DNA of 21,433 nt from a virus. This document shows, in pieces, positions 18,145-21,418 of the stretch (its first letter is position 1; each line of letters starts with the position of its first letter). The stretch lies in IMG/VR virus record IMGVR_UViG_3300020183_000539, positions 1 through 21,433 of that record, one strand, 5' to 3'. The translations under genes and the position numbers were made by a program. The notes under the pieces were generated by a model. The model did no database searches and had not been told where the DNA came from. It saw only the letters and a list, made by a program, of their open reading frames with translations.

Positions 18145-19048
18145 GAGGTTTGCCATAGGTTGGTTCAGTTCCATATTCCCAATCATCATAGTCCTCATCA
18201 TTACGAATTTTCTCATGAAATTCTGTTTGTTCCTTCAAAAAATGTTTACTTTTGGGAACATCATCATGCATAATTTCTTGAATTGTACGTTTCTCGAGTT
18301 TTACATGGTAGTCAGTGACTAAATTTGTGGTTCCCCACATCTGATACATGTAATTTTTGTCTCTATCTACAGGTAAGTTGGACATTTTTCCTAATTCGAA
18401 GTGAATTAGAACTTTTAAAGGGGTTGCCATCCCTATTTCGTACATAAAATCATCAGAAGTTTCAATTTTTCTTTTATTTTCCACTGAGTATTCAGTCAAA
18501 TCTATCTCATAACCAGGATTTTGAGTGATTCTATTGCGAGTCCAGGCATCATCATACCATAAAATCTTATTATTTGGGTATGCATAGAAGTTTCCATTAT
18601 CCATTTTAAAAAAATGAGCACATTTGTGCTCTGGAGTCTCACTAAAATTAGTATTCAGTGTTGATTTTGACTCCCAAGACCAATCTAAAGTGAACATATA
18701 GACACCTTCGTTCTTTTCGCCCTTATAATTAATCAATTCTGCACGCAATCCAGCAAGTCTAGACCTCACTTGAACATCAATATAAGGCGAAAAGCAATCC
18801 CACCACATACATTCCTCAAGTTTAGGCACTGGAGCATCTGGTTTCCAGCAAAATGCATGAATAGGTCTTCTAGTCCAGTTAACGCCATTCTCTAAAAATG
18901 CCTCAAAGAGGGGTACATGTTTCTCTAAGGATGCTACAGAGTGTACATCACATAAAGTCACCTCTCCATGTCCTTGCTTATGATTATAGAGGAACTCATT
19001 CCTAATGTAACAAGTAATTGTAGGAAGATTGTGATTTAAATATGCCAT
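18140..19048 (-). CDS. Unknown 302-residue protein upstream of gp25
   Basis: I choose the ATG at 19048 (MAYLNHNLPTITCYIRNEFL). An in-frame ATG exists at 19195, but the extra 49 codons would cover an intrinsic terminator and most of a better-supported 47-residue gene in another frame. The protein is soluble, rich in aromatic residues, Lys and Asp/Glu, with no membrane segment. Visible blocks include CDVHSVASLEKHVPLFEAFL, NWTRRPIHAFCWKPDAPVP, and ECMWWDCF, with several Cys and Trp residues. The C-terminal 60 residues are highly charged (EFHEKIRNDEDYDDWEYG). I do not recognise a domain. It lies between a terminator and the late promoter of gp25, so its own transcription is unclear; read-through or a weak TATAGATA element near 19087 are possible. 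It may act in tail assembly by location only, which is weak evidence. Confidence 0.8.
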   Translation of the reverse strand: MAYLNHNLPTITCYIRNEFLYNHKQGHGEVTLCDVHSVASLEKHVPLFEAFLENGVNWTRRPIHAFCWKPDAPVPKLEECMWWDCFSPYIDVQVRSRLAGLRAELINYKGEKNEGVYMFTLDWSWESKSTLNTNFSETPEHKCAHFFKMDNGNFYAYPNNKILWYDDAWTRNRITQNPGYEIDLTEYSVENKRKIETSDDFMYEIGMATPLKVLIHFELGKMSNLPVDRDKNYMYQMWGTTNLVTDYHVKLEKRTIQEIMHDDVPKSKHFLKEQTEFHEKIRNDEDYDDWEYGTEPTYGKPQ

Positions 19049-20183: not shown

Positions 20184-20212
20184 ATGATACTACATTATTT
20201 AGTTTCAGTCAA
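20184..20212 (-). promoter_or_regulatory. sigma70-type promoter for the glycosyltransferase-like gene cluster
   Basis: On the minus strand TTGACT, a 17-base spacer, then TATCAT; each hexamer differs from consensus by one base. The -35 box contains the stop codon of the 47-residue gene at 20348-20205. T4-like cyanophage early promoters resemble host sigma70 promoters, so this probably serves early transcription of the genes ending at the terminator near 19060. Confidence 0.55.
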
Positions 20213-20348
20213 ATACAGCAGTGACCCCTATGACTTTTGCCTTTGGATTTCTTGCAAGTGCCGTTTCCTTTGCATCCTTATAATCTCTGGCATAGACTTC
20301 TTCATAAAAGACCTTCCCTGCCACATATAACTGTACTCTACACTTCAT
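20205..20348 (-). CDS. Small protein of 47 residues, unknown function
   Basis: Begins MKCRVQLYVAGKVFYEEVYA, followed by RDYKDAKETALARNPKAKVI and ending GVTAVFD. The alternating start and the helix DAKETALAR suggest a beta-alpha-beta miniature fold. Its ATG lies within the last codons of the previous gene (11-base overlap), which implies coupled translation. I do not recognise a family with a known role, though short proteins starting this way seem familiar from marine T4-like cyanophages. Its stop codon lies in the -35 box of the next promoter. Confidence 0.7.
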   Translation of the reverse strand: MKCRVQLYVAGKVFYEEVYARDYKDAKETALARNPKAKVIGVTAVFD

Positions 20349-20496
20349 CACAGGTACTCACAATCAAAAACTCTTCTAGATCATAATCAGTGGAAAATAT
20401 GTCCATCATCATGGAAATATTTGTGAGGCAAGACTGGCATTCTGCCTCAGTACCCTCACAAAATATCCTGTCTCTGGCAATCAACTTATAGGGCAT
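20338..20496 (-). CDS. Small protein of 52 residues, unknown function
   Basis: I choose the ATG at 20496 (MPYKLIARDRIFCEGTEAEC) because AGGA lies 5 bases before it. A longer version from 20562 would add 22 residues that read through a hairpin. The product has three Cys residues (two in CEGTEAECQSC) and an acidic C-terminus (DYDLEEFLIVSTCDEV). The Cys pattern could hold a metal or be chance. The ribosome binding site lies in the 3' arm of a hairpin, and the end overlaps the next gene by 11 bases. Function unknown. Confidence 0.6.
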   Translation of the reverse strand: MPYKLIARDRIFCEGTEAECQSCLTNISMMMDIFSTDYDLEEFLIVSTCDEV

Positions 20497-20633
20497 TTTT
20501 TCCTGGCAAAAATTTTTTCTATTGCCAGGGACCCAATAATCTTTATTCCTTCCCACAGGCAAACTCCAATATACTCCAATTCCTCACAAAAGTCCAGGGT
20601 ATTTTTTACTAGGGAAAAATTTTTTTGTTTCAT
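20481..20633 (-). CDS. Possible 50-residue protein overlapping the next gene
   Basis: An open frame MKQKNFSLVKNTLDFCEELE, then YIGVCLWEGIKIIGSLAIEK, ending ARKKCPIS. It ends with TGA 13 bases past the ATG of the 52-residue gene, as in coupled phage genes. The ribosome binding site is weak (AGAG directly before the ATG). A competing 36-residue frame (start 20694, stop 20584, MRILLTPLTYKPLKKRANYR...) overlaps its first half; I cannot decide which, if either, is made. Confidence 0.4.
   Translation of the reverse strand: MKQKNFSLVKNTLDFCEELEYIGVCLWEGIKIIGSLAIEKIFARKKCPIS
20502..20529 (-). promoter_or_regulatory. Hairpin covering the ribosome binding site of the 52-residue gene
   Basis: CCTGGCAA and TTGCCAGG form an 8-bp perfect stem around a 12-base A/T loop. 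On the minus-strand RNA the 3' arm contains the AGG of the Shine-Dalgarno sequence, 6 bases before the ATG at 20496. No T-run follows in that direction, so it is not a terminator. Ribosomes reading the 50-residue frame would open it. Confidence 0.45.
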
Positions 20634-20694
20634 CTCTATAATTAGCTCGCTTTTTCAAAGGTTTGTAGGTTAGGGGAGTCAGTAAAATTCGCAT
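20584..20694 (-). CDS. Possible 36-residue basic peptide
   Basis: First ATG after the predicted start of the leader RNA: MRILLTPLTYKPLKKRANYR, ending KKYPGLL. A GGGG run lies 6-9 bases upstream. It overlaps the 50-residue frame. There is no recognisable family. It could be a leader peptide or non-coding. Confidence 0.25.
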   Translation of the reverse strand: MRILLTPLTYKPLKKRANYRDETKKFFPSKKYPGLL

Positions 20695-20738
20695 TACAAC
20701 CCCACAACAACACAAACCCCCACAATACCTGTCAATTC

Positions 20739-20767
20739 ACTATAACATACCCTCACAGATCTGTCAA
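20739..20767 (-). promoter_or_regulatory. Strong leftward sigma70-type promoter
   Basis: Minus strand: TTGACA, 17-base spacer, TATAGT, with a TGn extended -10. Only one base departs from the consensus hexamers. The predicted start is near 20732, with a leader of about 100 bases to the 50-residue frame. Two further TTGACA sequences lie at 20792-20787 and 20735-20730 without a good -10 partner. Confidence 0.7.
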
Positions 20768-20820
20768 GTGGTATAGCCTACTGGTTTGTCAATAGAATAC
20801 TTTCAGTCCCACACATACAC

Positions 20821-21009
20821 TCACTGTCTTATACACAGTTTTCCACAGGTTTGTTATACTTTTTCCACAGGTTTTCCACAGTTTTCTTATAGTTTTCCAC
20901 AGGCATATTCACTGTCTATTTGTATAAACACTGACAGGCACTGTGTTCTCACAAAATATAACTCACTGCCTGTGGAAAACTTTTATACTGTGCCACAAAA
21001 TTCACTGTC
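20821..21009 (+). repeat. TCACTGTC repeats (three exact copies)
   Basis: TCACTGTC occurs at 20821-20828, 20909-20916 and 21002-21009, with a near copy TCACTGCC at 20963-20970 directly before an inverted TTTTCCACA. Two copies are preceded by AT (ATTCACTGTC or AATTCACTGTC). They are interleaved with the DnaA-box-like repeats. Confidence 0.6.
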
Positions 21010-21148
21010 CTGGGGGTATTGACATCTGGGAGGATTTGTGATATACTGGGGGCCAAGATCACAACAACTGGACACATTTACCAACAATACAGTAGATTAT
21101 ACATATCATTCACACTTTTTCCACAGAATTAACAAAACCTGTGGAAAA
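20829..21148. repeat. Cluster of DnaA-box-like repeats, candidate replication origin
   Basis: Exact TTTTCCACA on the plus strand starts at 20839, 20861, 20872, 20893 and 21117; the reverse complement TGTGGAAAA lies at 20971-20979 and 21140-21148. All seven continue with G, and five read TTTTCCACAGG. TTATACACA at 20829-20837 fits the E. coli box TTATNCACA. As I recall, TTTTCCACA is the DnaA box of Synechococcus chromosomes. The last two boxes form a 10-bp inverted repeat with a 12-base gap. Such density is not expected by chance. Confidence 0.7.
21019..21047 (+). promoter_or_regulatory. Strong rightward sigma70-type promoter, no gene in its path
   Basis: Plus strand: TTGACA, 17-base spacer, TATACT, with TGA before the -10 (extended -10). 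Predicted start near 21054. Transcription would pass two inverted DnaA-box-like repeats and the AT-rich patch and then run antisense to the gene at 21418-21209. No convincing plus-strand frame lies downstream inside the window. Confidence 0.65.
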
Positions 21149-21190
21149 CTCATCTATATTTTTTTGAACATTTATATTCATTTCATAACA
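21149..21190. other. AT-rich patch beside the last repeats
   Basis: A short AT-rich stretch with a run of seven T residues follows the last inverted repeat pair. It could be the unwinding element of an origin. TGAACATTT occurs here (21165-21173) and again at 21199-21207 as a short direct repeat. Confidence 0.3.
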
Positions 21191-21208
21191 CTGTACGGAA
21201 TGAACATT

Positions 21209-21418
21209 TCACCATCTATTAACATCTAAAACATCTTCCATCATGTATGCTAACTCACTGATATAAGACCACTCTAACCATGCCACACTTCTCTGATCTT
21301 CAGTATCACACTGCTCAATCACTTTGTTATACTGTTGCTTATAACTATCAAGTGCCAAGATGATTCTTTGTGCATCCTCTTGACATAACTCAATCTTGAA
21401 AACTTTGTTCTTTTTCAT
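21209..21418 (-). CDS. Small acidic protein of 69 residues, unknown function
   Basis: Starts MKKNKVFKIELCQEDAQRII and ends YMMEDVLDVNRW. The pattern is largely helical: QEDAQRIILALDSYKQQYNK, then a loop QCDTEDQRS, then AWLEWSYISELAYMMEDVLD, consistent with a two-helix bundle. No domain is recognised. The start has a weak AGTAGA a few bases upstream. In front of it, TAA at 21427-21425 may be the stop of a gene beyond the right edge. Its transcript would run into the repeat region; I see no terminator for it. Confidence 0.65.
   Translation of the reverse strand: MKKNKVFKIELCQEDAQRIILALDSYKQQYNKVIEQCDTEDQRSVAWLEWSYISELAYMMEDVLDVNRW

Follow-up and report, generated by a model that had tools for sequence, protein, structure and literature searches.

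The 21.4-kb IMG/VR viral fragment analysed here (21,433 nucleotides, hereafter the window) was found to carry an array of cyanobacterial-type DnaA boxes in a non-coding gap of a T4-like cyanophage genome. The array is real biology. Host DnaA very probably binds it, whatever the outcome of the binding, and as judged from the sequence the resulting hub would most likely serve as the start of phage replication, a reading to which we assign a probability of roughly 0.4. Lytic cyanophages with the array probably recruit or capture host DnaA; to our knowledge neither is known for T4, so that recruitment by T4-like cyanophages would be a use of DnaA new relative to that phage. Where replication starts in the abundant T4-like cyanophages is not settled, and the conserved array, which may mark the start of phage DNA copying, offers one exact place. 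The recombination route of these phages has been assumed from T4 (PMC2984593), and the open-access literature, covered partly by title and abstract, yielded no report joining cyanophage, DnaA box and replication origin.

The original prediction described seven exact copies of TTTTCCACAG, in both orientations, and one TTATACACA within 320 bases, and an exact string search of the window confirmed all of them at 20829-21148 (Table 1). The remainder of the 21,433-base window holds no further exact TTTTCCACAG, and five one-mismatch sites outside the array correspond to the background level. A first-order Markov model built on the remaining window sequence predicts 0.097 exact copies of TTTTCCACAG per window and 0.0015 per 320 bp, and no unrelated 10-mer in the window reached at least three copies per 320 bp. 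The non-coding setting was upheld as well: the gap between the two flanking minus-strand ORFs spans 575 bp, and inspection of the ORFs gave no convincing gene within it, the overlapping TTG/GTG ORFs being merely mechanical. The array lies upstream of a group of small ORFs and a phrog_1574 gene. Genes for T4-type gp25, gp6 and other baseplate-wedge families on the minus strand bore out the assignment to a T4-like phage, and among the isolates of the phage collection the freshwater Synechococcus phages DSL-LC02 and DSL-LC03 come closest. A tRNA explanation was discarded, there being no tRNA in the window; no Rfam family was found at the locus, and a snoRNA match under the gathering score was attributed to chance. 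A 47-aa protein (MKCRVQLYVAGKVF...), not in the ORF list, is encoded at 20208-20348 on the minus strand and matches stretches of marine cyanophages that carry the annotation hypothetical protein or RNA polymerase inhibitor.

Table 1 Features of the DnaA-box region, in window coordinates.
Feature	Position	Strand	Remarks
Non-coding module	20634..21208	.	Between 50-aa ORF (20481-20633, -) and 69-aa ORF (21209-21418, -)
CCCTAACCTACA leader element	20664..20675	-	Downstream of array; 12/19 isolates, searched as CCTAACCTACA
Sigma-70-like promoter TTGACA-17-TATAGT, TG before -10	20739..20767	-	11/12 match; faces small-ORF/phrog_1574 genes
Variant DnaA box TTATACACA	20829..20837	+	Left edge of main cluster; same place in L141
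DnaA box 1, TTTTCCACAG	20839..20848	+	Exact match
DnaA box 2, TTTTCCACAG	20861..20870	+	Exact match
DnaA box 3, TTTTCCACAG	20872..20881	+	Exact match; 1 base past box 2
DnaA box 4, TTTTCCACAG	20893..20902	+	Exact match; among the best-kept boxes in 9 freshwater relatives
DnaA box 5, TTTTCCACAG	20970..20979	-	Exact match; invariant in core alignment of 9 relatives
Sigma-70-like promoter TTGACA-17-TATACT	21019..21047	+	11/12 match; faces against gene direction
Dyad TTGTGAT-N15-ATCACAA	21036..21064	.	Covers -10 and start of rightward promoter
DnaA box 6, TTTTCCACAG	21117..21126	+	Exact match; one arm of inverted pair
DnaA box 7, TTTTCCACAG	21139..21148	-	Exact match; second arm of inverted pair
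AT-rich patch, direct repeats (TAAATGTNNNAANAAATGTA, minus strand, in relatives)	21149..21190	.	Flush to inverted pair

The cyanobacterial type that had been proposed for the boxes is well supported. The 9-mer TTTTCCACA is documented as a cyanobacterial DnaA box by EMSA and footprinting in Cyanothece and is also supported for S. elongatus and Anabaena (PMC4674748). Of 32 Cyanobiaceae genomes, 20 have it upstream of dnaN, where it is enriched and ranks among the most shared 9-mers; the GC-rich variant TTTTCCCCA occupies this region in 13 of the 32, and TTTTCC(C/T)CA boxes are also used by the hosts, as disclosed by the listing of dnaN-upstream sequences. The phage boxes share a longer consensus, AGTTTTCCACAGGT, an extension that is mostly absent from ten lone sites found in other parts of four genomes. 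DnaA domain IV (PF08299) was not detected in 15 phage genomes, with positive controls; a phage-encoded DnaA-like initiator was thereby ruled out for these genomes, and host DnaA is the likely ligand. Upstream of dnaN in 22 of the 32 Cyanobiaceae genomes (L371-L399) CTACTACTA was also seen, which reads as DnaA-trio repeats and hence as a DnaA-trio-like signature of the host oriC. A direct derivation of the array from a host oriC was rejected, only the 9-mer being seen in common.

Close relatives were retrieved with the phrog_1574 protein as query, which gave 80 IMG/VR loci for comparison. Among closest-clade loci with enough upstream sequence, 4-8 boxes lie upstream of phrog_1574 in L024, L129, L130, L132, L134, L135, L137, L138, L141 and L142; the array is missing in L139 and L140, the latter with decayed boxes. 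Alignment of 9 relatives revealed that the promoter hexamers, one minus-strand box, the AT-rich repeats and the dyad are invariant or nearly so, and A(A/T)AG precedes DnaA box 5 in the relatives. Mean column identity in this alignment was 0.86 for boxes, 0.80 for other non-coding positions and 0.66 for upstream coding sequence, so that the boxes stand out only modestly from the other parts of the gap. The inverted pair has been lost in L132 and L095, which carry two direct boxes about 100 bp away instead, a turnover that suggests selection to keep the array.

As the window is only a 21.4-kb fragment, the check for a single peak suggested by the original prediction was made in relatives, and every TTTTCCACA was recorded in 19 isolate genomes. 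The maximum was located upstream of gp25/gp6 in P-SSM7, S-CAM22, S-SSM5, S-BM1, S-RIM2 and S-RIM12, as well as in DSL-LC02, DSL-LC03, Syn9, S-ShM2 and ACG-2014d. In Syn1 and S-PM2 it falls nearby, at 5-7.6 kb upstream of gp25, and S-PM2 was counted as doubtful because annotated tRNA genes overlap its three boxes. One peak each was again found in the fragments G001 (155 kb) and G002 (45 kb). The peak contains 4 of the 6 sites of the genome in P-SSM7 and in ACG-2014d, 4 of 7 in S-CAM22, S-ShM2 and Syn1, 7 of 10 in DSL-LC03, 5 of 8 in G001 and 7 of 8 in G002, and for each of these eight the scan statistic gave p ≤ 1e-4. Values of about 0.001-0.013 were obtained for five further genomes, and taken alone the statistic is weak for Syn9 (0.07) and DSL-LC02 (0.13); these two, together with S-BM1, S-RIM2, S-RIM12 and S-SSM5, have smaller peaks. 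An inverted pair with a start-to-start distance of 22-25 bp is present in most array-bearing isolates, across several genera.

A single peak at or near the same place is thus a property of most Kyanoviridae tested. The expected conservation in related phages was found in most of them but not in P-SSM2, P-SSM5, P-HM2, S-CAM9, ACG-2014f and S-N03, whose TTTTCCACA listing contains no box cluster; since L139 and L140 are also without it, the array is not essential in all. A wider search of IMG/VR for the pair pattern gave, among the matches listed, several high-GC ones that were set aside because by eye they look like repeats within ORFs or like different phages that carry terminase/portal-like genes. 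Three viral contigs (L013, L016 and L045, corresponding to G007, G006 and G011; 69-103 kb) contain two groups of boxes in mixed orientation, separated by about 1 kb.

The two 11/12 promoters have 17-bp spacers and diverge around the main box cluster. The -35 and -10 of the leftward one are invariant in the 9 relatives, and a near-perfect promoter occurs at the matching place in S-CAM22, S-SSM5, S-BM1, S-RIM2, S-RIM12, Syn9 and P-SSM7. The rightward promoter is kept and strong in freshwater relatives and is weak or doubtful in marine isolates. The dyad over it, near-invariant in the 9 freshwater relatives and not seen in the marine ones, is a possible operator. As for the AT-rich patch noted beside the boxes, it is present at about 21121-21200, but its weakness is only local, with a duplex stability z of about +0.7 against an AT-rich window, which is not exceptional. 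Its repeats, flush to the inverted pair, are conserved in the aligned relatives, and the patch is a candidate unwinding element. In L137, tandem AT-rich repeats (ACAGTCAATATTAGTATATTA, at about 550-800) lie between the boxes and the promoter and may likewise be an unwinding element. A late-promoter reading of the AATAAATG repeats, one base off the T4-like NATAAATA, was dropped. Most of the Kyanoviridae tested have a single copy of the CCCTAACCTACA element, which lies at position 1501 of L246-L257, is often followed by AAAGGTT (short hairpin), and is present in P-SSM2 although boxes are missing there.

The reading of the array as a replication origin draws on seven consensus boxes per 320 bp where about 0.0015 are expected, on the single peak, the inverted pair and the turnover of boxes, on the host-type and extended form of the box, on the lack of a DnaA domain IV in the 15 phage genomes, and on the divergent promoters and AT-rich repeats. 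Unmodified host RNA polymerase is believed to transcribe the early genes of cyanomyoviruses, and for Syn9 a single theta origin was predicted, versus several in T4, with no position stated (PMC2984593). Early in infection, unmodified host RNA polymerase would fire both promoters and host DnaA would fill the array between and beside them. Bound DnaA would then help to melt the AT-rich repeats by the inverted pair, or hold a promoter R-loop open, after which the phage replisome (gp59, gp41, gp61, gp43) would be loaded, ahead of recombination-dependent replication. The array would in this way work as a hybrid of oriC and T4 oriF and not as a copy of a host oriC. DnaA-dependent single-strand priming sites are hairpins with a DnaA box in the stem; the inverted pair of the window (boxes 6 and 7) folds as a 10-bp single-stranded DNA hairpin of this kind, so that a role in priming is possible.

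Replication origin, as originally proposed, remained the most likely use of the array, but some expected signs did not appear, and the mildness of the AT-rich patch and the relatives without the array also count against it. The GC skew around the locus has no kink of the right sign. Cumulative skew rises along the whole genome, nearly linearly because the genes run in one direction, and after detrending no switch was detected at the locus; over 30 kb, skew was lower on the right in 4 of 4 genomes tested, opposite in sign to what a bidirectional origin would give, though this result is confounded by the structural gene block. No DnaA-trio repeats were seen beside the phage boxes when close-relative loci and isolates were read by eye. 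Furthermore, the phages carry T4-type gp59 and recombination genes and therefore need not use DnaA. That T4-type Kyanoviridae, through much of the family, and independently a Vibrio T4-like phage start replication at a DnaA-using, oriC-like site is a more tentative proposal than the origin reading for the array itself. If the array is an origin, the first round of phage replication would depend on host DnaA, which is regulated by the cell cycle and by light. More broadly, the array suggests that host DnaA is connected with phage replication, with transcription or with the shut-off of the host, which is of relevance because cyanobacterial replication depends on light.

Capture of host DnaA could by itself be the purpose of the array, a datA-like titration by which the host chromosome is not re-initiated while the phage multiplies. 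Exact TTTTCCACA numbers only 5, 8, 12 and 17 in four picocyanobacterial genomes (2.2-3.5 Mb), so that one phage genome with seven boxes equals or rivals the full set of perfect boxes of its host; box number is kept while positions turn over, and the extended flanks suggest high affinity. Such titration, however, needs no fixed place, inverted-pair spacing or promoters, yet all are kept, the host TTTTCC(C/T)CA boxes would dilute its effect, and several marine isolates have just 2-3 boxes. We regard it as a serious rival, though a less likely one; an origin or a transcriptional function is favoured over it because the place, the inverted pair, the adjoining AT-rich repeats and the promoters are fixed.

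That transcriptional function, a rival of similar weight to titration, would be an early switch in which DnaA, bound between and beside the divergent host-type promoters, activates or represses them and links early genes to the cell cycle. DnaA is a known transcription regulator in bacteria. In the window the main box cluster is upstream of both promoters, the rightward one is followed about 60-95 bp downstream by the inverted pair, and both promoters are among the best-conserved stretches of the gap in the 9 relatives. Against this, distances between boxes and promoters differ between lineages; marine isolates have their main boxes outside the pair of promoters, the second of which is weak there.

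Less probable again is the binding of another protein, such as a phage repressor or a partition or packaging factor, whose site resembles a DnaA box. In its favour, the phage flanks (among 108 distinct contexts, 77% have A at -2 and 72% have G at -1) show a stronger preference than those of host dnaN-upstream boxes, and the conserved dyad adjoins the boxes; the core, however, is the exact host DnaA box, GTTxTCCACAGG flanks recur in high-affinity E. coli boxes, and an array in Vibrio phage nt-1 is built from the box type of its own host, TTATCCACA. Very unlikely is that the inverted pair acts as an RNA hairpin, terminator or single-strand priming hairpin with the remaining boxes incidental: a 9-14-bp fold occurs in six phages (z -2.2 to -7.0), but no terminator-like site was found in the array region, the arms hold the exact box sequence with no paired drift, five further boxes of the window lie outside the hairpin, and L132 and L095 have direct boxes in place of the pair.

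The array can be set beside several known systems. Host DnaA boxes occur at the replication or promoter region of lambda (ori/pR), P1 and R6K, but these belong to temperate phages or to plasmids, several of which have an initiator and iterons of their own, whereas the array belongs to a T4-type phage of a lytic family. The T4 origins oriE, oriF and oriG are transcript-primed (R-loop) origins and share with the array a promoter beside an AT-rich stretch in a T4-type genome. No DnaA-box cluster was found in T4 or Aeromonas phage 44RR, only scattered E. coli-type boxes, and the promoters described here are TTGACA-17-TATANT and not of the MotA-dependent middle type. As cyanomyoviruses are without MotA (PMC2984593), the promoters of the array would be of the host sigma-70 type. 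The cyanobacterial oriC (S. elongatus PCC 7942, Anabaena 7120, Cyanothece 51142; PMC4674748) likewise has several TTTTCCACA in both orientations in a non-coding gap; the phage array differs in having no adjoining dnaN or dnaA, no trio seen and no skew switch, and in belonging to a lytic phage that has a replisome of its own. E. coli datA and DARS (PMC5835720), which bind DnaA at sites other than oriC, resemble the array in being small non-coding groups of DnaA boxes, and differ in box number and spacing and in not being phage-borne. In the T4-like Vibrio phage nt-1, a 371-bp non-coding gap (18214-18585) among small ORFs contains about eight TGTGGATAA-like boxes (L416:2815-2940, NC_021529.2 at about 18314-18440), arranged, unlike those of the cyanophages, in one orientation at steps of roughly 11-22 bp. 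Its relative KVP40 has no such box cluster, and the nt-1 array indicates that T4-like phages of different hosts can gain DnaA-box arrays, each in the box type of its host.
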